Part shown: positions 1 through 15,352 of the stretch, piece by piece
Position numbering within the stretch: position 1 is the stretch's first letter
How the letters are laid out: the number at the start of each line of letters is the position of its first letter
Virus record (IMG/VR): IMGVR_UViG_3300025886_000188
Location: 1-21,474 of that record
Reading direction: 5' to 3' (one strand)
DNA: 21,474 bases
DNA from: a virus
Program-made: the position numbers and the translations under genes
Notes under the pieces: model-generated
Told to the model about the DNA's origin: nothing
The model's input: the letters and a program-made list of their open reading frames with translations, nothing else
The model's database searches: none

Positions 1-1946
1 ATACGCATGTAGGTCTTGGGCGGAATCTTCGATGCTGGCATGTCACCATACTGCTTCATTAGTTTATCATACTCAGCCTTGTCGGACTCGGTGATCTCGA
101 ATTCTTCCTTTCGCACACGACCGAACCGATCTTTCTTCAAAAAACCACTACCACCTTTCTTTGAGTAAGCAGCACCACCCTTCTTTGAGTAAACAGCACC
201 ACCCTTCTTTGAGTAAGCACTACCACCCTTCTTTGAGTAGGAGCTACCGCCCTTCTTTGAGTAGGAGCTACCGCCCGTTACCACCTTTGATAATGAAACA
301 TTCTCTTCTACTTCTTCGTTTCGCGCACGATTAAGCGTCTTTGCCATGTTTTTTCGCGATTTGACATACTGTTTTGTAAAATCGGCATCTGACGGAATTG
401 GCTCTTTGTCTTTGATGATACGACCGAACTGATCTTTGTTTCCACGGTATTTGATACCCGCGCGAGACTTGGCAGAATTTTGATTGTGCTTCTCTGTCGC
501 TTTGGCTTTCTCTTTTGCCTGATCCACTACGCGAGCCTTTGCCGCGCGAGCGATCTTTGCTAGTCGCTCCGACTTTGCATCTTCCTTCATCGGTGTACGA
601 ACAGGCTTGCCACCCTTTGAGATGATACCCTGCATACCCTCGCCACGAATCTTTTTCAGGAATGCTTGCGCTTCATCTTGTGACATAAACTTTGTAACCT
701 TGATAGGTCCGCTTTTTCGACTTGAGTATTTGACTTCAAACTCAGGCGTTTTGCCTTCAGGGAGAGTTGACTCTTCATGAGAAACCGATTCCCCAATATT
801 GTCCGGTTGACCGGGGACAACTTTACTATAGCGGTCTGCCATTTCCTTGGTTCCCCATGCAGGCGGGGCAGTATCTCGTAATCTTTTCATTGGTTTTCTC
901 CTTATAACTTTTTGTTGATCGGATTCCCATATATCAACATCTAATTTTAATCGTGAATGTCCGCCAGCAATAAATGAATTAACACGATCAAACGCATATT
1001 GATGTGCCGTCCTATTTCCATATATTGGACTGGACGCTAGGCCTCTTAAAAATACTTCTAATAACGACGAGTAAGGAAGGCGACTTTTATCAGCCTTCCT
1101 CAACAATGCATCGCGATGATCTTCAGTCATAAGAAAATCGTCATGCAACAACAATAAAAACCGACGATACAAAAGATCATCTGCCATAATATATTCCAAT
1201 GTTTTGTCTGTCACGTCAAAGATATGCTTCCTTAGTTCTTGATTGGTGCCAGACTTATTCATATCTTTGAATGATCTTTGAGTAATTGGAATATCTCGGG
1301 TCTTTACTAGACCAAAGCGAAGCATGGTATTAAACTTTCTGCCGACAATACTCTTATCAGTAATATCATGCAATTCATTCATAATACCACAAAACTCTTC
1401 ATTAATCTTCATACCACGACGAATAGCATTATAAAGTTCTTTCGGGTTCTTCATTGGAGAACCCTTCTTGAACTCTTTATAATTACCATCAACTGCAAAC
1501 TTCCGCATCTTGGATGCAGACATTCCTGTCACATCTTCGGCATCAGGATCTCGTTCCCCGGCTGAGATGATCTCTATTTCATCAAAATTATATTCTTTAC
1601 CATTATATTGATTAAGTAGCCTCTTAAACTCTTGGGCTCTGTCGGAACCCACAACAAGAGACACCTCTTGATACCTCTTGTCAAGAAATTTCATAACATC
1701 AAGAACGGTCTTGATACTCGGAGAAGCATTAATGTTCTTTGAATGTGTAGGAAAGGACTGCTTGAGAAACTTGACCTTCGTGCGGAAGGTGAGTGGATTC
1801 TTCTTGGGGTCATTGGATTTAGATGCAAATATAGCATATTCCGCTTTTCGCGACTTTGCTTCTTTTGCAACGCGGTCCATGACGACCTTATGTCCTGTCG
1901 TGGGAGGATTGAATCTTCCCCACGCAAATACAATTTTTCTTTTCAT
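1..1946 (-). CDS. (H/T)xGH nucleotidyltransferase with long Lys/Gly/Ser-rich C-terminal tail (3' end beyond window)
   Basis: The reading frame is open from ATG 1946 to the window edge (648 codons, no stop). Residues 1-150 are a cytidylyltransferase/NMN-adenylyltransferase-like domain. It shows GRFNPPTTGH at 10-19 (the (H/T)xGH nucleotide-binding signature, T-x-G-H form as in CoaD), VVGSDR in the middle and GMSASKMR at 141-148, equivalent to the ISxTxxR motif. Such enzymes transfer a nucleotide from NTP with release of pyrophosphate; the substrate (NMN, a sugar phosphate or other) cannot be read from the sequence. Residues about 180-350 look helical and are unassigned. From residue 353 the chain becomes low-complexity and Lys-rich, with two FGR motifs (KDQFGRIIK and KDRFGRVRK) flanking six eight-residue repeats. 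An AAGGG Shine-Dalgarno (SD) precedes 1946. A second good start inside the frame, at 890, suggests either an old fusion of two genes or a separate C-terminal product. It is the last visible gene of the late block. Confidence 0.8.
   Translation of the reverse strand, partial: MKRKIVFAWGRFNPPTTGHKVVMDRVAKEAKSRKAEYAIFASKSNDPKKNPLTFRTKVKFLKQSFPTHSKNINASPSIKTVLDVMKFLDKRYQEVSLVVGSDRAQEFKRLLNQYNGKEYNFDEIEIISAGERDPDAEDVTGMSASKMRKFAVDGNYKEFKKGSPMKNPKELYNAIRRGMKINEEFCGIMNELHDITDKSIVGRKFNTMLRFGLVKTRDIPITQRSFKDMNKSGTNQELRKHIFDVTDKTLEYIMADDLLYRRFLLLLHDDFLMTEDHRDALLRKADKSRLPYSSLLEVFLRGLASSPIYGNRTAHQYAFDRVNSFIAGGHSRLKLDVDIWESDQQKVIRRKPMKRLRDTAPPAWGTKEMADRYSKVVPGQPDNIGESVSHEESTLPEGKTPEFEVKYSSRKSGPIKVTKFMSQDEAQAFLKKIRGEGMQGIISKGGKPVRTPMKEDAKSERLAKIARAAKARVVDQAKEKAKATEKHNQNSAKSRAGIKYRGNKDQFGRIIKDKEPIPSDADFTKQYVKSRKNMAKTLNRARNEEVEENVSLSKVVTGGSSYSKKGGSSYSKKGGSAYSKKGGAVYSKKGGAAYSKKGGSGFLKKDRFGRVRKEEFEITESDKAEYDKLMKQYGDMPASKIPPKTYMR
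132..275 (-). repeat. Six tandem 24-bp in-frame repeats encoding GGSxYSKK
   Basis: Read on the minus strand from 275 downward, the units are GGSSYSKK, GGSSYSKK, GGSAYSKK, GGAVYSKK, GGAAYSKK and the diverged GGSGFLKK. Each is exactly 24 bases, with no spacer and no frame break. They lie at residues 558-605 of the surrounding gene. The first two units are identical at the protein level and the last is the most altered, as expected of growth by slippage or unequal exchange. The product is a flexible, positively charged segment with one aromatic residue per unit. Confidence 0.95.
888..903 (-). promoter_or_regulatory. Internal ribosome binding site and start codon
   Basis: Inside the long frame, AAGGAG (903-898) stands seven bases before an in-frame ATG (890-888). 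This is a better site than that of the full-length start. It marks the exact point where the folded nucleotidyltransferase part ends and the Lys-rich tail begins (MKRLRDTAPPAWG...). It may permit separate synthesis of the tail protein, at least 296 residues within the window. Confidence 0.6.
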
Positions 1947-1984: not shown

Positions 1985-2332
1985 TCAGCTTTTTGGAGCA
2001 GATGACTTCATCTGCTTAAATCTTTCGGCTTCCTTCTTCTTGATCTTTGGCAGTATCTTGACTGCCAACTTATTGATCTTTGCCTTGTGCTTTTGTAATC
2101 TCTTCTCGATTGACATCAACATTTGCTTAGATTCAATCTCACCCTTGGTCTTTCCGGCTGTCATCTTCTTGAATACAATAGCTCTTGCTGCCTTCTGGGC
2201 TCGTTTTTTTAAAGATTTGGCATCAGCAAACTTAGAAAGTTTTCGCTTGCGAGCGCGTGCAATGACGTTAGCTTTTCGCTTCATCATCTGCCCTTGCTTT
2301 CGGCGTCTTTGCATTGACCAAACTTCGTTCAT
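1985..2332 (-). CDS. Very basic 115-residue protein, probably nucleic-acid binding
   Basis: No enzyme motif is visible. About a third of the residues are Lys or Arg (39 of 115) against 7 Asp/Glu. Basic clusters such as QRRRKQ, ARARKRK and KIKKKEAER are spread over the length, and it is probably helical. The charge suggests binding to DNA, RNA or a polyanion, for example packaged DNA, but this is inference. I start it at ATG 2332 because GGAG lies six bases upstream; a longer frame begins at TTG 2344 and would contain that SD inside the gene. It sits between the ligase-like gene (stop at 2356) and the nucleotidyltransferase (start 1946, 38 bases on), all in the late transcription unit. Similar small Lys/Arg-rich proteins seem common beside these two genes in marine T4-like phages, from memory and unchecked. 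Confidence 0.75.
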   Translation of the reverse strand: MNEVWSMQRRRKQGQMMKRKANVIARARKRKLSKFADAKSLKKRAQKAARAIVFKKMTAGKTKGEIESKQMLMSIEKRLQKHKAKINKLAVKILPKIKKKEAERFKQMKSSAPKS

Positions 2333-2355
2333 TTTATTCTCCAAATATATTATAT

Positions 2356-3600
2356 TTAGGAATCCCAGTTTTTGATAGCAGTGAAATTCTGGTGTGAAAA
2401 CTCAAGACGATCAACTAATTTGATTGTCTTTCCGTCACGATCCACTGCAACAAATCCCTCGTCCCCTGTGACTCTGTATCCTGTATTAGTTTTTACAAAT
2501 GTTCTATACTGATTTGCACCACTTCCGAGCTTTTCCACAATCACATTCTTTGCATTGACTACATGCGTCTGATACTCTGCAAACGCAATCAACGTAGGTT
2601 TAACTTTTCGATATACTTTGAGATGCTCTTGTTTTGTTCGTTCTTTGGCATCCTTCGTTTTCTGCATTTTTAGACCAGCAATATGAGTATCCCACCACTG
2701 AGTAAAATAATTATAATACTCAACGGCATGTTTGCGAGGATTAGTAATTGCCTCTCCTGCACGAACCTTCGTGTTGCAATAGGTCTTATAGGAAGAACCC
2801 ACCGCAGCCGAAGGAATCTTATTCTGCATATCAATAAACAAATCTAAATCTTTTGACTTAACCTTTCGGAATGCCTTACCAGCTCGCGAAAGATGGCGAT
2901 TAAGTTCTTTGATTTCCTTGGGGGTGAATAACACGTTACCCGAAAGATCATGATAGTAGGCGTCGTCGTACCACACACTCTTTGTTTTTTTCATGCCCGC
3001 AATGTTTACACCAATAGATGCAGACATATCAGGAAGAGTATCACCAGTATATGTTGTGTGCCACACGACACCAATCTTTGATGCTTTAATTTGCTTGGCA
3101 AGTGCTGATGTCGTATCTACTGCATAGACGATTGTATTGGGTTGAAATGTAACATAGTTCACACCATCAATCGTTTCATCAGAAAGGTCACTCTTAGTGA
3201 ACATCATGTCACCCTGAATGACTCCATTGATTCCCAGCTTGGAAAGTTCCTTGAGAGCAATCTTTAACTTATCTGCAAGGCCTCCAGAATAACCATACTT
3301 CTTTAGATCGGCATTCGACTTGACCAACTTGGCATTCTTGGCAAACACGCCTTTGGTGCCTACGAAAAACTTTCCATCTTCTGGATCGGTTCCTGCGAAG
3401 ATTGCAGGTGCGCCATCCCACTTTACATGTAGATCAACCTTCTTCGTTGACTTGCCGGAAAGCATGTCCCGAATAGAACGAAGGAAGTTGATGCCAGAGC
3501 GCATACCATCAATACCATAAAAGAATACAAGATCCTCAAGATGTTCAAGGTGCAAGTTCTTGGTTGCGTCTTCTGTCAAAAATTGATTAAATGATTGCAT
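2356..3600 (-). CDS. Ligase-like covalent nucleotidyltransferase with capsid-targeting N-terminus (DUF6267-like)
   Basis: The 414-residue protein carries a plausible set of polynucleotide-ligase motifs in order. These are motif I KWDG (K60 as the candidate AMP-accepting lysine), GTKG near 81-84, motif III-like VIQGD at 127-131, IIIa-like IVYAVD at 157-162, motif IV EGFV at 381-384 and motif V IKLV at 393-396. A helical stretch of roughly 150 residues rich in Lys separates III from IV, longer than in typical ligases. The first ten residues, MQSFNQFLTE, match the capsid-targeting peptide of T4 internal proteins (MKTYQEFIAE), which the gp21 protease cuts after [L/I]-x-E. So the protein may ride inside the head and be trimmed to start at D11. 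The start is three bases after the preceding stop and the SD is weak (AAGGA, 16 bases away), so translation may be coupled. I recall this family as DUF6267, unchecked; the ligase role is inferred from motifs. Confidence 0.8.
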   Translation of the reverse strand: MQSFNQFLTEDATKNLHLEHLEDLVFFYGIDGMRSGINFLRSIRDMLSGKSTKKVDLHVKWDGAPAIFAGTDPEDGKFFVGTKGVFAKNAKLVKSNADLKKYGYSGGLADKLKIALKELSKLGINGVIQGDMMFTKSDLSDETIDGVNYVTFQPNTIVYAVDTTSALAKQIKASKIGVVWHTTYTGDTLPDMSASIGVNIAGMKKTKSVWYDDAYYHDLSGNVLFTPKEIKELNRHLSRAGKAFRKVKSKDLDLFIDMQNKIPSAAVGSSYKTYCNTKVRAGEAITNPRKHAVEYYNYFTQWWDTHIAGLKMQKTKDAKERTKQEHLKVYRKVKPTLIAFAEYQTHVVNAKNVIVEKLGSGANQYRTFVKTNTGYRVTGDEGFVAVDRDGKTIKLVDRLEFSHQNFTAIKNWDS

Positions 3601-3603
3601 GAT

Positions 3604-4701
3604 TTATATTTTAAGATCCTTTGCTGTTGACACCAATGCTTCCGGTGCAATCAAAACTCTAACCTTACTGTAAACCTCGCCATCAACAGTAAATTTTCTA
3701 TCACTTGTATATCTAGCAATAATATGAGGAACATATCCGGCGGTCTTGAAGTGATCTAGCTCACCATTAAGTTCTACGCCTTCTGTAAATTTTAATTCAA
3801 ATATCAACCCACAATCACTTAATGATGCAACCCGCCTTCCCGAATACTCTTCTAACGAGGGGGTTCCTTGTGCAATAAAATTCACATTTTCTCTAGATGG
3901 AGTAAATCTACCTTCTTTATATTCTGGACCATATATTGCCAGATTCATCAATTTCTTTCCTTCTTTAGTCCAAGGAATTTTTACTTTATATCGTTGTTTC
4001 GGAGGTGTTGTAATATCATCCAACACATTCACAAAAGCTCTCATAGATTTTTGAACTAATATATGCTCGTGTATCGCTTGCCCCGCTCCCGGAGTTGTTC
4101 CTCCATATTGCTGATAAGCTCTTGCCCCACCAGCATCTTTATGCGATATTTGACAAACTTCATTTCCTTTAGAATCTACAATGGCAAAATCAGATTTTGG
4201 TGTTCCCGGTATTGTTCTAGCACCAACACAATCTTTATAAATTTGGGCTGCTGGACCACGCCCGCCATGCTTTCTTAATACAATACAAATACCCTGCCCA
4301 CTATATTCTTTAACTCTTTTTTTAATTGCTTGGTCCAAATCACGGAGAGCAATATCTTCTTTTTCTGTTGTGCTTTTGGCACCACCCTTTTGTGGCTTTT
4401 TAATTCTATTAATAGGAATCCATCCTTTAACTTGCCCAACCTGAACATTTGCACATATTGTACTAGGATTTCTTGGTTTAGACCTCGGAATAACTTTTGA
4501 TTTATTTCCTAATAATTTAATACGAGTTCCTGCCTTTTGGACTGTAGTTAAAGAAGTTCCCGTAGCATCCTTATACAAAGCAGTATCTTTATCTACTACC
4601 ATATTACTTTCAAATGTCTTCCAATCTTTCTTCTTTTCCACATAAAAATCCCAAGAATATTTAGTCTTGTCTCTACTTGCCTTGGTTCCCATATGTGCCA
4701 T
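3604..4701 (-). CDS. Protein with SH3-like region and possible PD-(D/E)XK nuclease core
   Basis: A 365-residue protein, first gene of the late unit. Residues about 38-102 (TALYKDATG ... GWIPINRIKKP) look like a bacterial SH3-type beta barrel, often a binding domain. Residues 115-225 hold a pattern typical of restriction-endonuclease folds: a helix, then KSDFAIVD with D171, a turn, then VCQISHKD with Q184 and K188, followed by ARAYQQYGG. A D-x(12)-Q-x(3)-K arrangement fits a variant PD-(D/E)XK active site, with Q in place of the acidic residue. The C-terminal 140 residues are unassigned. ATG 4701 has an AGGAGA SD, and a T4-type late promoter lies about 30 bases further up. Expression with head and tail genes, and the binding-plus-nuclease layout, suggest a virion or packaging function, but that is inference. 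Confidence 0.7.
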   Translation of the reverse strand: MAHMGTKASRDKTKYSWDFYVEKKKDWKTFESNMVVDKDTALYKDATGTSLTTVQKAGTRIKLLGNKSKVIPRSKPRNPSTICANVQVGQVKGWIPINRIKKPQKGGAKSTTEKEDIALRDLDQAIKKRVKEYSGQGICIVLRKHGGRGPAAQIYKDCVGARTIPGTPKSDFAIVDSKGNEVCQISHKDAGGARAYQQYGGTTPGAGQAIHEHILVQKSMRAFVNVLDDITTPPKQRYKVKIPWTKEGKKLMNLAIYGPEYKEGRFTPSRENVNFIAQGTPSLEEYSGRRVASLSDCGLIFELKFTEGVELNGELDHFKTAGYVPHIIARYTSDRKFTVDGEVYSKVRVLIAPEALVSTAKDLKI

Positions 4702-8042: not shown

Positions 8043-8663
8043 CTACTTCAACTCCTTAATTGAATCGCAGATTCCAAACTTTTTTGCTTCCTTTGCGCTT
8101 AACCAAACATCATGAGGAGGTAGCAAAGTTTCGCGAACCTTCTTCTCAGTCATACCAGAACATTTAACATAATGGTCTGTAATCATTCGTGAAGTCAATT
8201 CAAACCCCCTACTTGCAGTAAGCAACTCATGCTCCTTGCCCCACTTGCCCCAAGAATACTGATGAGACAAAATTGAAGTGTTTGGTGTCAATGTTCGTTG
8301 ACCATTTGCTCCTGCCATAAAGATCATCAAAGCTGCACTAGATACCTCACCTAAACCAATTGTATGAATGGGTATACCAGAACCTCGCATAGTATCAATA
8401 AGCGCGAATGCATCTGTCACACTACCTCCTCCAGAATTCAAAATTAAAGTAAGAAATTCCGGCTGGCTCGATGAAAGATTATTCCTAAAAATCCATTCAA
8501 TTACTGGCTTTACCGTAGCATTATTGATGTCGTCCATAATCATCATGACGCCAAGTTTATCTAAAGTATCGTCACCCCCACCAAAAAGCGCACCTAACAC
8601 ATCGCCGGGACTTGAAGCCTCCGACATTTCATCATCAACTACTTTCGACTCATTCTTCATCAT
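8043..8663 (-). CDS. clpP: ClpP-like serine protease
   Basis: Residues follow ClpP in order. An LNSGGGSVTDAFALID segment forms the oxyanion strand. It is followed by GEVSSAAL with nucleophile Ser (S109 from this start), ILSHQ with His (H134), and HDVWLSAKEA with Asp (D185). The triad is thus intact. The 206-residue length is close to bacterial ClpP. I place the start at ATG 8663, which overlaps the polymerase stop as ATGA and has GGAGAGG eight bases upstream; the frame is open up to 8714 but that would lie inside gene 43. No ClpX/ClpA partner is present here, so it would use a host ATPase, act alone on peptides, or process a phage protein. The T4 prohead protease gp21 is a different, also serine-type, enzyme, and I see no sign that this gene replaces it. 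Confidence 0.92.
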   Translation of the reverse strand: MMKNESKVVDDEMSEASSPGDVLGALFGGGDDTLDKLGVMMIMDDINNATVKPVIEWIFRNNLSSSQPEFLTLILNSGGGSVTDAFALIDTMRGSGIPIHTIGLGEVSSAALMIFMAGANGQRTLTPNTSILSHQYSWGKWGKEHELLTASRGFELTSRMITDHYVKCSGMTEKKVRETLLPPHDVWLSAKEAKKFGICDSIKELK

Positions 8664-11236
8664 CCAAAAAACCTCTCCAGTGTATTTGTTTGTTCGGACT
8701 TCCATCCAACACAATCCAACAGCACTTTAATGGGGTCAAGAAATGCCTTGACAAATTGTTTATCATAATCAACATAATCATTCAACCCAAACTCTTCGGG
8801 CAAATTATTTGTAATAGATATTACAGCTTCGTGACTCGGATTTGGCATTTTCAAATATAAGAACTTAATCTTATCACCATCCATAATTATTTGCTGCTGT
8901 TTTTCTAGATTATTCTCCCTAATCAAACGATTGTATATAATCGAACCCTTTACATGAATTGGGGTATGTTTTATATAGGAGTCGCCATTGGTATACTTAC
9001 GAACACCATTCACTCCACGAGGAAATGCAACATCCTCGGCAGGAAGAGAATAGAACTCCTGTTTAAACCCCTCAATAAAAGTTTGAGCATCGTCTTCTTT
9101 ACCATTCATAATGATATCCAAAGCATCTTTAATCTTCTGCCTACAAACTTCTGGAGTAGAAGACTTGACTGCCTCAAGACCCATAACCTTTAGTTTGGGT
9201 TCACTATAACTTACCCCCTCGTTATTATAGACACTAAGAACATATCGTTTCTTGGCTGTCCACAAACCCTTGGATGCAATGGCTTCTCGTTTCATTACCA
9301 TCTTCTGATCATATGCATTCATATAATCGGCAAGCTCATCATAGCACTCATCAATATAAGGCTCTAGCTTTTCCGAACAAACCTTGTCAAGAAAATCCAC
9401 CACCTTTTCTGTTTTAACTTCTCCAACTCCATCTCCAAAAGCCAAACTAACAAGTGAATCAAGAGTAAGATATATGCTGTCGGTATCAGAAGCCACCACA
9501 AAATCTTCATCGGTCGTCCCCAAGAGAGTATTCAAATATTTATTCATTTTACTCTCTATCCAACGAATGGAAAGCTGACCAGCTTTGGTTACAGCCTCCG
9601 CGATACGAAGATCATAGAATCTAAAGTATTGATTTCCCAAGGCACCATACGCACTATTCAACTGAACCTTACGGGCAAGCTGATCGTTATTATGCTTAGA
9701 AATCAAATTCATATATTTTTGCTTTTCGTACCCCTCTGCCGTTTGAAGTTTTTGCTGACATTCAATCATCTTCTTCTTAGAAGTCTTCCGTTTATTATAA
9801 AGATCCTCCAGAATCTCTGGAAGAAATCCCTGAGAGTCTCTCTTGAAGAACATGATGTTGGGAGCAACCGTAAGATTATCCCTCTTCAACAATGAAGTAT
9901 CAAACTCTTTATTAATCAGCTTATCATAATTGGCAATAGTATCCCACGGGCCGCGCTTTAAAGAATCTAGAAGATCCTCATTGGCTTGTTCGGGGGGCAC
10001 TAACTTCTCTGGACTTAAATTGTATTGCATCATCAAATGAGGATACAAAGAGTTCAAGTCAAAAGAAACAACCCAGTTATGAGCGCCCACTTGAGGCTCC
10101 TTAACATAGGCACCTTCAAATTGAACTGTCTTGTTTTCATATTTCCTCTGAGGAAGAACAATATCCTTTGCTACAAGATGGTGATAACAAAGACTATCCC
10201 ACATACGCACCTGCGAAAACACATCACCCAAATTAACCTTGGCTGAATACGCAAGTGCAACTGCCATCTCGATGAGTTTCATCTTATCCTCAATACGACC
10301 AACAAGCTCAACATCCTTCACATTGTATTCAATAAACTTATGGTAGTCCCTCTTATACAATGTATGCAAACTACCAAACTCAGAGTATGATAGCTTTCGC
10401 TCTCCGAGTTCTACGTTCGCAATATAGTCAAGACGATAACTTTCCCTGTTTGTATAAGTAAACTTCTTGTACATGTCGAGATAGTCTAGAGTGGCAATAC
10501 CACTAAGATCGACACTGATCTGATCTTGACCAAATCCAGATTTAAACTTTCGCACATGTGCATAATTCCAAGGCGAAAGTCTTCGGGCAACCTTCTCATC
10601 ATGAAGACGACAAAGACGATTGTAAAGATATGGAATATCGAATCCGCTTACGTTCCACCCTGTAACAATATCAGGTGAATACTCATTCCAAGTATGCAAA
10701 AATCTATCGAGTAGATCCACTTCATCATCACAAGAGACATATACAATACCCCTAGCTTTAAGAGTGTCTTCAATTTTGCACTCATCGGGTTCACCAAAAC
10801 CAAATACATAAAACGAATCATTAAACTTAACCGCAATCGAAATGACGGGAGAGGCAGCAATTTCTGCATGAGGAAACCCCTCATCAGATGCAACCTCAAT
10901 ATCAATGTTGGCAATCACCAATTTATTGATATCATATTCAATATCATCGGCATAATTATCCCCGATGAATGCAAAGGCAAAGTTGTCGTTCCCAAAAATC
11001 TTATAGTTGGATACATCTTTGTATCGTTCCATAAAATCCCGAGACTCGCGAATATTGCCGGGTTGGATGGGCTTGACGTTCATTCCGTTTAATGTTTTGT
11101 ATTTTGATTCGTCTTTAGTTGGGACGTATAGCGTGGGCGAATATTTTATTTTCTTTTGAAATCGTTCACCGATATCATCAACACCGCGAAGGAAGATTTG
11201 ATTCCCAACGGCTTTCACATTCGTATAAAATGCCAT
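8660..11236 (-). CDS. 43: DNA polymerase, family B (T4 gp43)
   Basis: The phage replicative polymerase with 3'-5' proofreading; 858 residues (T4: 898). Exo I is NIDIEVAS with D112 and E114, the same positions as in T4. Exo II is GWNVSGFDIPYLYNR, and Exo III is EYNVKDVELV with D308. Polymerase motif A is DLNSLYP at 393-399, motif B is KVQLNSAYG at 523-531, motif C is DTDS at 584-587, and KKRY is at 662-665. All catalytic residues are present, so it should be active. The C-terminus TNTLERFFG resembles the clamp-binding peptide of gp43 and should dock on gp45. The start ATG 11236 has AGGA six bases upstream and follows the amidase by 13 bases; the stop overlaps the ClpP-like start. Confidence 0.98.
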   Translation of the reverse strand: MAFYTNVKAVGNQIFLRGVDDIGERFQKKIKYSPTLYVPTKDESKYKTLNGMNVKPIQPGNIRESRDFMERYKDVSNYKIFGNDNFAFAFIGDNYADDIEYDINKLVIANIDIEVASDEGFPHAEIAASPVISIAVKFNDSFYVFGFGEPDECKIEDTLKARGIVYVSCDDEVDLLDRFLHTWNEYSPDIVTGWNVSGFDIPYLYNRLCRLHDEKVARRLSPWNYAHVRKFKSGFGQDQISVDLSGIATLDYLDMYKKFTYTNRESYRLDYIANVELGERKLSYSEFGSLHTLYKRDYHKFIEYNVKDVELVGRIEDKMKLIEMAVALAYSAKVNLGDVFSQVRMWDSLCYHHLVAKDIVLPQRKYENKTVQFEGAYVKEPQVGAHNWVVSFDLNSLYPHLMMQYNLSPEKLVPPEQANEDLLDSLKRGPWDTIANYDKLINKEFDTSLLKRDNLTVAPNIMFFKRDSQGFLPEILEDLYNKRKTSKKKMIECQQKLQTAEGYEKQKYMNLISKHNNDQLARKVQLNSAYGALGNQYFRFYDLRIAEAVTKAGQLSIRWIESKMNKYLNTLLGTTDEDFVVASDTDSIYLTLDSLVSLAFGDGVGEVKTEKVVDFLDKVCSEKLEPYIDECYDELADYMNAYDQKMVMKREAIASKGLWTAKKRYVLSVYNNEGVSYSEPKLKVMGLEAVKSSTPEVCRQKIKDALDIIMNGKEDDAQTFIEGFKQEFYSLPAEDVAFPRGVNGVRKYTNGDSYIKHTPIHVKGSIIYNRLIRENNLEKQQQIIMDGDKIKFLYLKMPNPSHEAVISITNNLPEEFGLNDYVDYDKQFVKAFLDPIKVLLDCVGWKSEQTNTLERFFG

Positions 11237-12487: not shown

Positions 12488-13078
12488 CTAATCTTCATTT
12501 TTTCTAAGTTCTTCTGCAACATCTTTTGCAATTAAAGCGAGGGCCCATTTTCCATTATACGTCATGGGCTTTGAAGCCTCTTCGTATGATTCAAAAGCAA
12601 ACTTTCTCCCCTTTACGCGAGAGAAGAATTCACCCTTAGCATCACCAAAGACAGGTTTACCGACAACTACCTTTTGACTATAATCAGGAAAAGCGTCGTC
12701 TCGTTTTGATGTTCCGTAAAGGTATCCCTTCTTTTCAAACGGAACACTCAATATACTGTCTTGATCATAAAGGCGACCCAGCTTAATCAAATCACGTTCA
12801 AGCTGACCACCATCATCGCCTTCGATCTTGTAGTTTGCAACGAAAAAGGATTCTTCTCCAACTTCTTTCTGGGTGTCGCTCCCAAAGTTTTCAAGATAGC
12901 TACCCTTCACCTTGATGACCGAGTAGTTTGCATTTAAAAGATATGCGAGAACCTTTTTGTTATTTGCCTTATTCTCTGCCTTGGTTTTGTCACCCCGAAA
13001 AGCCGTGACCGCGCCAACAGCATGGTTCTTGGTTTTCTGATAAATTCGATTTAAACTAGATTCAAGTAACGTTTCCAT
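12488..13078 (-). CDS. Conserved hypothetical protein after regA (DUF3293-like pattern)
   Basis: A 196-residue soluble protein. The pattern VGAVTAFRGDKTKAENKANNKKVLAYLLNA, then a G-Y/S-Y segment, EESFFVAN, and LGRLYDQDSILSVP reminds me of the phage and bacterial DUF3293-type family, whose biochemical role is unknown to me. I did not find a catalytic triad or metal motif. The start ATG 13078 is set by GGGAG six bases upstream. The frame is open up to 13174, but that stretch lies within regA. The gene overlaps the regA stop by 17 bases, so it is co-transcribed with regA and perhaps coupled to it. The hsp20 promoter begins immediately behind its stop codon. Confidence 0.75.
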   Translation of the reverse strand: METLLESSLNRIYQKTKNHAVGAVTAFRGDKTKAENKANNKKVLAYLLNANYSVIKVKGSYLENFGSDTQKEVGEESFFVANYKIEGDDGGQLERDLIKLGRLYDQDSILSVPFEKKGYLYGTSKRDDAFPDYSQKVVVGKPVFGDAKGEFFSRVKGRKFAFESYEEASKPMTYNGKWALALIAKDVAEELRKNED

Positions 13079-13481
13079 TGTTGCTCCCAATCGTATACTT
13101 TGCCGCAAGAGTCCATTCAGTCTTTTCTCGAAACGGAACAATCTTGATTCGGCGAAGTGTGGTTGTTTCTCCAAGGGTAGATATTACTGCAACCAACCCC
13201 CATTCGTCAAGGAGCTTGGCAATCGTGTTTCGTCGCTGCTCATCTTCTTCCGTGAAGTTAGTTCGTTCCGACTTTCCGTCGAGGATGAACAACTCTTTGA
13301 AATGAAGTATAGCATATCGCCCACGTTTATGCAAGATATGACACGATTGAAATAGTGTATTATCTCGCCGTGAAGCAACACCAATTCGAGTTAGCGTCTC
13401 TTTCACCTTTAGAAAATCTTCGTCATTCGGTAGATCAATCTCTACCCCTAATCCATTGAATATGTCGCAAACGTCGCTCAT
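13062..13481 (-). CDS. regA: Translational repressor RegA
   Basis: RegA binds start regions of early phage mRNAs and blocks ribosomes, shutting down early synthesis including its own. The 139 residues (T4: 122) match T4 RegA closely: EDFLKVKETLTRIGVASRRDNTLFQSCHIL, HFKELFILDG, FTEEDEQRRNTIAKLLDEWGL and TEWTLAAKYTIG. The N-terminus is about nine residues longer than in T4 and the tail ends SNNGNVT. AGGAG lies six bases before ATG 13481. The order 62-regA is as in T4. By analogy, targets may include its own message and the clamp, clamp-loader and polymerase messages in this window; the sites cannot be fixed by eye. Confidence 0.97.
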   Translation of the reverse strand: MSDVCDIFNGLGVEIDLPNDEDFLKVKETLTRIGVASRRDNTLFQSCHILHKRGRYAILHFKELFILDGKSERTNFTEEDEQRRNTIAKLLDEWGLVAVISTLGETTTLRRIKIVPFREKTEWTLAAKYTIGSNNGNVT

Positions 13482-13508: not shown

Positions 13509-13898
13509 TTAGCGTTTCTTGCCCCTACCGCCCATCCAGAGCTTCTGTCTCAGTTCATCCATCATATCGGGTGTCAAAAGATCCACCACTTCCATCGCCC
13601 GTTGGGCTGAATACCCATATATACGCTGAATAACCTGCACGTCATCTTCGATGCTCGTTTTGTGCCATCGACTAAATCGGCTCTTCGGCCGAATCGCCGT
13701 TCGCAAATAATCAAACTGAAGCTTCGGTTCGACCCAGTGTCGCTGATTCATCTCGTTAGCATACAGAACAGTATCCGCGAAGTAACTCAGCGTCCGGTTG
13801 ACCGGAAACACTGGATACTCTTTCTCGGCAAACTCGTCTTCGTCCATCAACGGCTTTTTGCTCTTATTAATTGATGTTAGGAAATCCCCCAGCTTCAT
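13509..13898 (-). CDS. 62: Clamp loader small subunit (T4 gp62)
   Basis: The non-ATPase subunit that joins four gp44 subunits to open and load the gp45 clamp. The 129-residue product is shorter than T4 gp62 (187) but has the pattern I associate with marine T4-like gp62: FPVNRTLSYFADTVLYANEMNQ, LQFDYLRTAIRPKSRFSRWHK, then IYGYSAQRAMEVVDLLTPDMM. The start ATG 13898 overlaps the stop of the DUF262-HNH gene as TAATG and has AGGA eight bases upstream. Further upstream frame is open but inside that gene. It is separated from gene 44 by three genes, unlike T4, where 44 and 62 are adjacent. It is followed by regA. Confidence 0.88.
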   Translation of the reverse strand: MKLGDFLTSINKSKKPLMDEDEFAEKEYPVFPVNRTLSYFADTVLYANEMNQRHWVEPKLQFDYLRTAIRPKSRFSRWHKTSIEDDVQVIQRIYGYSAQRAMEVVDLLTPDMMDELRQKLWMGGRGKKR

Positions 13899-15352
13899 TA
13901 TTTGAGTCCTAGATGCTTGACCATATGACAATTCTTATGTAGCATTTCGCAGTTCTTTTCTTCGGTATCTCCGCCCACAACAACTGGAATAATATGATGT
14001 GCATGGGCCCCGTCCAACACAAGGGGTTCATTGCACTCAGTACATACGTTCTTCTGTTTGCGCAACACTCGCAGTCTGATCGCGCGCGTGAAGAACCTCT
14101 TTACATTGTTTACCAGAGAGATGCCGCATAACTTAGGATCAAAGTTGCCGTAGTTATCTGCGAAATATTCCCGAAGAATGTCATTCTTGAGTTTCCACTC
14201 ACTTTCGTTCTTTCTACCACAAGCTCGCGAGTATCCAAGGTATTCGGTATTTTGTTCTGGGTTATCTCGCATATACTCATGAGCTTCAATGAAGCTCGCC
14301 GAGAACTGTTCGTAATTTTTAATCATTTTTCCGATCTTCTTGCCTTGCCAATGTTCTAATCCTAACATAAACATCGCAAGACCTTCAATCATAACAGGAC
14401 TCGTAAAGTCTTTGCGAGCTTTAGGTGCGGCCCGCATTACTTTGTTCAGTTCATCCAGAAATCCATAATACTCGGTTAGGATCTTCTTGCCCAAGTTATC
14501 ATCACGCTCTTGGATCAACTGCCAATATCCCCGATCACCGTCCTTGTTTCTTAGAAGACGAAGCACGCCTTGATCATTCATTGACATGCTATATGCCGAA
14601 TAGATACTTGAATCACCATTCGGGTCATTCTTCTTACAAAACACCATGAACATTTTTGATGCAAAATCAATCCGTGCCTTCAGGTTGGGCGTATTATACC
14701 ATTGACCCTTTTCAAAGCCCTCCCATAGCGGGTGACGCTGCGAACGCTTCGCAGGGAGATTATCATAAATCTCCGGGTGAAAATATTCATCTTCACCTTC
14801 CCACTTCTCCCCGAGCCCAGTAGTGACTCGAATGATATTCATAGCATCGTTCATGTACGAATTCATGTCTTCATATACAGTGAGAGATACACCAGCATTG
14901 AGTTGGCGGAATAGCCGCGCGCGTTCCTGAAAGGTTGCATTGTAGTACACATAAACGTCGAGTTTATATTCTAGAAAACGCTCTCGTACCGACTTCGGCA
15001 AATCACGAAAATACCGATCTTCGCCTTTCCACTTAATTGTGTACTTGTTTTGCAAAAACAACATGATATGCATTCGACGATGGTTCCCATCCTCGACCCA
15101 ATACCTACCCTGCTGCGCTCTATACTTTCCAGTCTTGCCGGTGAGCGCCCGGAGCATATCTACAATATGTATCGTATTGATCGGCTCCCCGCGAATAATC
15201 GCTTGAATGATCGGCTCACGAAGAAATTTCTTTGCCAGCGAATCCAAATATGCACGCTGATTCAATGATGCCTCTAGGTACCAGGCAGACAAAGGATCGC
15301 CAATAAACTCACGAATACTAATATCAATTCTCTTCCATTCATGTAGACTCAT
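13898..15352 (-). CDS. DUF262 (ParB-like) plus HNH endonuclease protein
   Basis: A 484-residue protein with two recognisable parts. The N-terminal DUF262-like domain shows NQRAYL at 31-36, VEDGNHRRMHIM at 86-97 (the DGxxR motif, D88-R92) and FRQLNAGVSLTVYE at 148-161. This matches the nucleotide-binding/hydrolysing half of GmrSD-type restriction proteins. After a helical middle, the C-terminus is an HNH nuclease: CTEC (C437, C440), AHHIIPVVVGG (H452, H453), N467 and NCHMVKH (C475, H476). Both active sites look complete. Related DUF262 enzymes cut modified DNA of rival phages, so exclusion of competitors is one possibility; mobile, homing-like behaviour or DNA processing is another. The gene has its own promoter and couples (TAATG) to gp62, splitting the clamp-loader genes. 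Confidence 0.88.
   Translation of the reverse strand: MSLHEWKRIDISIREFIGDPLSAWYLEASLNQRAYLDSLAKKFLREPIIQAIIRGEPINTIHIVDMLRALTGKTGKYRAQQGRYWVEDGNHRRMHIMLFLQNKYTIKWKGEDRYFRDLPKSVRERFLEYKLDVYVYYNATFQERARLFRQLNAGVSLTVYEDMNSYMNDAMNIIRVTTGLGEKWEGEDEYFHPEIYDNLPAKRSQRHPLWEGFEKGQWYNTPNLKARIDFASKMFMVFCKKNDPNGDSSIYSAYSMSMNDQGVLRLLRNKDGDRGYWQLIQERDDNLGKKILTEYYGFLDELNKVMRAAPKARKDFTSPVMIEGLAMFMLGLEHWQGKKIGKMIKNYEQFSASFIEAHEYMRDNPEQNTEYLGYSRACGRKNESEWKLKNDILREYFADNYGNFDPKLCGISLVNNVKRFFTRAIRLRVLRKQKNVCTECNEPLVLDGAHAHHIIPVVVGGDTEEKNCEMLHKNCHMVKHLGLK

Follow-up and report, generated by a model that had tools for sequence, protein, structure and literature searches.

The N-terminus of a 414-residue phage protein, MQSFNQFLTE, likely constitutes a T4-type capsid-targeting sequence (CTS) borne by an adenylyltransferase of the nucleic-acid ligase superfamily, DUF6267; this is the explanation that we favor as a whole, by analogy with the internal proteins of phage T4. 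Because T4 loads proteins into its head by means of such a peptide, we propose that tagged DUF6267 is probably packaged in the virion and that the enzyme probably travels in the particle and reaches the cell along with the DNA. The stretch of DNA analyzed here, referred to as the window, is the whole IMG/VR record IMGVR_UViG_3300025886_000188 (21,474 nt), a 21-kb fragment without the prohead protease and major capsid genes. The DUF6267 gene lies at positions 2356–3600 on the minus strand, near replication genes (DNA polymerase, UvsX, helicase, and clamp). Its product was assigned to the family by profile searches (PF19782, E = 3e-101, 340 bits against a Pfam gathering cut-off of 27; phrog_455). 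Using tblastn, we found DUF6267 in 463 phage records, mostly of T4-like cyanophages, together with phages of Methylophilales, Pelagibacter, and Stenotrophomonas, and nearly all of these records annotate it as hypothetical. A pattern scan of IMG/VR yielded 431 DUF6267-related stretches, and the best 80 of these 431 were retrieved. The name DUF6267 was not found in the open-access literature that we searched.

A conserved N-terminal tag of the T4 type

The tag occupies positions 3571–3600 (minus strand), read from 3600 to 3571 as ATG CAA TCA TTT AAT CAA TTT TTG ACA GAA, with predicted cleavage after E10. Behind it lies a linker (3559–3570, minus strand) that varies in length across relatives and precedes an invariant N-[LVT]-HLEH. 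The start codon is sound, because the DNA upstream of the ATG diverges between relatives and conservation starts at the ATG itself. We took a T4-type CTS to be an extreme N-terminal peptide of approximately 10–19 residues; in T4 IPIII, residues 4 and 7 are most important to targeting and residues 8 and 10 to processing, and the protease gp21 cleaves after L/I-x-E (PMC9026906). The initial annotation stated that T4 internal proteins begin with MKTYQEFIAE. Reading the T4 record (NC_000866), we found this to be correct for ipII and ipIII, which start MKTYQEFIAEA, and incorrect for ipI, which starts MKTFKEFTSTTTPVSTITEA, a longer propeptide. The claimed resemblance to IPII and IPIII holds position for position: in the extreme N-terminus MQSFNQFLTE, positions 4 and 7 are aromatic, position 8 is L/I, and position 10 is E, so that LTE at 8–10 supplies the closing [L/I]-x-E, followed by the linker of variable length.

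To describe conservation in the clade of the window, we compiled 28 distinct N-termini. The N-termini of nearly all complete relatives fit M-x(0-2)-F-x-x-[FYH]-[LI]-x-E, exactly or nearly so, and the order is the same throughout, with the tag, a variable-length linker directly after the E, and then the invariant N-x-HLEH domain. One relative that is 88% identical (L019) carries a 3-residue insertion immediately behind the tag. This pattern, in which the tag is kept and the linker changes in length after the E, agrees with the earlier prediction that the first ten residues would be conserved and those behind them would drift. Chance matches are rare: a fraction of 1.3e-4 of shuffled N-termini reach the T4 IPIII score, and an N-terminus fits the plain T4 rule, M-x(1,2)-[FY]-x-x-[FYH]-[LI]-x-E, with a frequency of 1.9e-4. 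A search for the same N-terminus in further genes, as had been suggested, recovered only two tagged ORFs in a near relative with a 98% identical DUF6267 (84 kb covered) and four in a 172-kb relative, with 0 and 1, respectively, in the reversed sequences. The second tagged ORF of the near relative (G002:C1:83906-84268, at the end of L187) is cut at the contig end and reads MKRFKDYITEAPAWTKSASEHIFFTDIHVP. When the tag was left out of tree building, tagged DUF6267 proteins formed approximately one clade, requiring 1–2 changes; the tag thus arose on DUF6267 in roughly one evolutionary event, and the many tagged sequences do not count as many independent cases. Judging from the sequences of DLP_6 and HTVC008M, the tag is maintained across deep divergence. 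Overall, we consider it almost certain that the tag on DUF6267 is real and conserved.

A matching protease is encoded in one relative: the prohead protease (PF03420) is present in the 172-kb record with a tagged DUF6267 (G005), and PF03420 was not found in five shorter fragments, near relatives included. The major capsid proteins of G005, S-CREM2, and S-SZBM1 contain MINE-A, LLTE-A, and ILTE-A, respectively, near residue 50, and such capsid propeptides ending in [LI]xE-A are consistent with an enzyme that cuts at [LI]xE. As a side observation, a window gene beside the DNA polymerase (8043–8714, minus strand) encodes a ClpP-like serine protease that matches phrog_94, among the head maturation protease PHROGs, with E = 1.5e-24.

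A ligase-like core in DUF6267

The body of the protein is very likely an adenylyltransferase core of the ligase superfamily, interrupted by a helical insertion at about residues 227–360. We compared its motifs in two alignments, A1 (31 sequences) and A3, which includes 300-residue forms that are ~30% identical. Motif I, K60-W-D-G63 (3412–3423, minus strand), contains the candidate adenylated lysine K60, and its K, D, and G are invariant in A1 and A3. It is followed by a motif III-like Q129-G130-D131 (3208–3216, minus strand; invariant in A1, with Q and D invariant in A3), a motif IV-like E381-G-F-V384 (2449–2460, minus strand; E, G, and V invariant in A1 and A3), and a motif V-like K394-L-V-D-R398 (2407–2421, minus strand; K, D, and R invariant). 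The conserved motifs run in the ligase order I, III, IV, V, with a motif V that lacks the second lysine of KxK.

Structure comparisons are consistent with such a core. The AlphaFold models of the window protein and of a compact relative have pLDDT values of 82.5 and 82.3. In the VIA comparison, the window model matched Naegleria Rnl best (Z 6.8, rmsd 4.0, 181 aligned), followed by REL1 (6.3) and T4 Rnl2 (6.0), with RNA ligases ranking best and unrelated helical proteins mixed in. For the compact relative, the 50 matches listed were all RNA or DNA ligases (top Z 7.6, rmsd 4.0, 174 aligned). A Foldseek search of the DUF6267 models against the PDB gave no significant match, and no ligase was found when PDB sequences were searched with a DUF6267 profile. 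Z scores below 8 are no proof by themselves; taken together with the motifs, these matches make it very likely that DUF6267 belongs to the nucleic-acid ligase superfamily. The earlier description of the protein as ligase-like is accordingly supported by the near-invariant KWDG, QGD, EGxV, and K-x-VDR and by the fold resemblance of the compact relative.

A further observation concerns one relative (L010:4-2360) in which the DUF6267 gene is split by an intein exactly after K-W-D-G, the tag being kept on the N-terminal half; a separate ORF (512–1216) lies between the two halves in a fractured-gene arrangement. Inteins favor active sites, and the split at motif I is an oddity that supports the ligase-like reading.

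Tagged enzymes in the virions of related phages

The mass-spectrometric support for packaging is indirect and comes from other tagged enzymes of related phages. The initial annotation regarded homologues without the peptide as evidence against its reading. Such homologues do exist in the cyanophage branch, where DUF6267 begins with MxKNTHLEHLEDD and has no tag, and the clade of the window keeps the peptide. In cyanophages with an untagged DUF6267, the tag is usually found on the neighboring NMNAT/cytidylyltransferase, and this transferase has been detected by mass spectrometry in virions of S-SM1 (T4-GC190; PMC3037559), S-SZBM1 (S-SZBM1_140; PMC9146016, Table 1), S-SCSM1 (SSCSM1_91, listed as S-SCSM1_91; PMC9602691 and record notes), and S-CREM2 (gp154; PMC10665884, Table 3). 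The N-termini of these four virion proteins are MKKFSAFLNEA (S-SM1_190), MRFRQFIIEA, MKSFLQFLKEA, and MKNFSSFLTEA, respectively. Because the tag thus sits mostly on the transferase found in virions, the untagged cyanophage DUF6267 does not contradict targeting but fits the idea that the tag marks the member of the cassette to be packaged.

Unrelated virion proteins carry the peptide as well. The S-CREM2 virion also contains gp6 (SAM hydrolase), gp13, and gp14 (kinase) (PMC10665884), which begin with MKDFDSFLEEF, MKDLHSFLTEQ, and MKRFDAFLTEE, and the kinase of S-CRM01, cited as a virion protein in that study (PMC10665884), begins with MISFDQFLSEK. For S-CREM2 gp12, a virion protein annotated as 'Cas9' (L180:7704-10313, minus strand), we observed LRFASFMAEA 16 residues inside the annotated start, with the L encoded by CTG; the sequence suggests that the annotated start is wrong or that the tag is internal. 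The window encodes a member of the S-adenosylmethionine lyase family (12488–13174, minus strand; PF23780, E = 1.9e-11) that has no tag and whose S-CREM2 homologue is the tagged virion protein gp6.

We then quantified the association with a weight matrix trained solely on DUF6267 tags and T4 IPII/IPIII, run on 708 annotated N-termini from three phages with proteomes, 129 of which (18%) belong to virion proteins. At scores of at least 8, five of eight proteins were virion proteins (Fisher p=0.0066), and at scores of at least 4, eight of 14 (p=0.0011). The plain T4 rule matched seven N-termini where 0.14 were expected, and virion proteins accounted for five of them. Of the eight top-scoring proteins, three were undetected in virions; each is 105–165 residues long and encoded among the head genes, and inspection by eye indicates that one has a C-terminal part in common with the virion protein SSCSM1_29. 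The untagged DUF6267 of S-SZBM1 (S-SZBM1_141) is not among the published virion proteins of that phage, that of S-SCSM1 (SSCSM1_257, MQNKHQEHPED) has no virion label, and the S-PM2 transferase was counted as undetected in S-PM2 virions (PMC3037559). The untagged S-PM2 protein, a fusion with DUF6267, and the untagged DUF6267s outside the virion lists fit the rule that the tag means packaging, absence from mass spectrometry being weak evidence. Two virion proteins considered as candidates for DUF6267 were rejected: T4-GC15 of S-SM1 is a tail protein, and SSCSM1_89 is not the DUF6267 of S-SCSM1, which is SSCSM1_257.

These virion data also bear on other readings of the tag. One is that the tag does target the prohead, and that the protein contributes there to the core or to DNA packaging instead of being ejected as an active enzyme. 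T4 IPIII influences head morphogenesis (PMC9026906), and two tagged families that escaped detection are encoded among the head genes, adjoining virion proteins; against this, most tagged proteins of at least 200 residues are enzymes with no evident structural role (SAM hydrolase, kinase, NMNAT-like), and DUF6267 retains all ligase motifs, so we consider this reading unlikely. Slightly less probable still is that the peptide is a docking motif for an intracellular partner, such as a member of the replisome or of the cassette, unrelated to the capsid. This would suit a gene located by replication genes, for which expression in the cell is expected anyway, but it does not account for the exact layout of the T4 internal proteins including the [LI]xE site, for the finding that virion proteins are enriched in this peptide, or for its presence in S-CREM2 and S-CRM01 on enzymes that are unrelated. 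Finally, we consider it improbable that the tag is incidental and the supporting detections reflect abundant enzymes that co-purified with CsCl-banded virions, as the authors of the S-CREM2 (PMC10665884) and S-SCSM1 studies cautioned, since untagged proteins of replication and nucleotide metabolism (recombinase, NrdA, and single-strand binding protein) are outside the virion lists, tagged enzymes are inside them, and the tagged transferase was detected in four phages. Taken together, we think there is a good chance, by analogy with T4, that the tag acts as a capsid-targeting signal and that DUF6267 is packaged.

The DUF6267 cassette and a proposed mechanism

In the cassette that encodes DUF6267, an upstream protein comes first, then DUF6267, a small protein (basic or otherwise), and the transferase; we observed this order in the window, Melnitz, DLP_6, and HTVC008M, and, minus the small gene, in S-SZBM1; the upstream genes are not all mutually homologous. 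In the window, the upstream neighbor (3604–4701, minus strand) is an untagged protein of 365 residues that looks PD-(D/E)XK-like by eye, with a match to phrog_27473 (E = 3.5e-51) and a homologue in DLP_6 gp65. The basic neighbor of 119 residues (1985–2344, minus strand) has a Melnitz homologue, gp17, that begins with MKKFSELTSELIE. The NMNAT/cytidylyltransferase-like protein (2–1946, minus strand; PF01467, E = 1.8e-5) is cut at the window end and untagged, and its cyanophage homologues are the tagged proteins present in virions according to published mass spectrometry. A 24-bp tandem repeat within this gene (148–276) encodes (A/S)YSKKGG units. Elsewhere in the window, a 484-residue protein (13898–15352, minus strand) has a C-terminal HNH domain (E = 1.1e-8) and an N-terminal part that looks like ParB/DUF262 by eye.

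In S-PM2, DUF6267 and the transferase form a single untagged polypeptide of 591 residues. Across cassettes, we counted 34 with the tag on DUF6267 only, 82 on the transferase only, 11 on both, and 1 on neither. We dropped this complementarity as a statistic, given that the DUF6267 tag is approximately one clade and that S-PM2 and ACG-2014e tag neither protein. In a 172-kb relative, a tagged transferase (MKFLDFLEE; L188:9298-11568) and a P-loop kinase of the zeta-toxin/PNK-like type (PF06414, 2e-11) form one protein, a fusion that would fit a heal-and-seal set with DUF6267.

We propose the following course of events. On the model of T4 internal proteins, the tag peptide would bind the prohead core during assembly, and the prohead protease would cut behind LTE, so that the mature enzyme would begin at D11; cleavage after E10 is likely. 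The mature DUF6267 would remain in the head alongside the DNA and pass with it into the cell. We judge it likely, at about the same level, that DUF6267 is a virion-delivered enzyme of the ligase family, somewhat less so that it enters the host cell, and an even bet that it is an active nucleic-acid ligase or adenylyltransferase. Once in the cell, it may act on nucleic-acid ends, probably in partnership with the NMNAT-like nucleotidyltransferase of its cassette, to which it is fused in S-PM2; sealing or adenylating RNA or DNA that has been damaged would be its most plausible use during the first minutes of infection. We speculate more tentatively that the ligase-superfamily enzyme, its NMNAT-like partner, and sometimes a zeta/PNK-like kinase domain form a packaged, ready-made kit for nucleic-acid repair or counter-defense in aquatic T4-related phages. 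An equally tentative detail is that the tag would mark whichever cassette member gets packaged, and RNA or DNA breaks inflicted by the host, or NAD depletion, would be countered before phage genes are expressed.

Comparison with known systems

Metabolic and regulatory enzymes occur in cyanophage virions, and the proteomics papers left undecided whether they are cargo or contamination; the tag rule may explain them, and it allows additional cargo to be predicted from sequence alone. DUF6267 gains a likely fold and location. Should tagged DUF6267 prove to be packaged, we know of no earlier case in T4-related phages of a nucleic-acid ligase superfamily member delivered by the virion. In the open-access literature, we found no paper linking capsid targeting to cyanophage or DUF6267 enzymes, and the sole match for capsid targeting with cyanophages was a T4 review (PMC9026906). 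Capsid targeting is already known from T4, and the DUF6267 case would add a new cargo enzyme family.

The tag is like that of T4 IPII and IPIII in its layout, M-x-[ST]-[FY]-x-x-F-[IL]-x-E, and in its gp21-type [LI]xE site. T4 IPI, IPII, IPIII, and Alt are CTS-bearing proteins processed by gp21, whereas the putative cargo here belongs to an unrelated ligase-superfamily family of aquatic T4-related phages. In its core, DUF6267 resembles ATP-dependent RNA ligases (Naegleria Rnl, T4 Rnl1, T4 Rnl2, REL1, and Trl1), with a KxDG motif I and motifs III, IV, and V in order, and these ligases are the best structural matches of its models. Unlike the solved ligases, it has no match to them at the sequence level, one motif V lysine instead of two, and a helical insertion of ~130 residues. 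Finally, the virion transferase of S-SM1, S-SZBM1, S-SCSM1, and S-CREM2 shares the cassette and the tag with DUF6267 of the window clade, but it is a different enzyme and, in those phages, is itself tagged in place of DUF6267.
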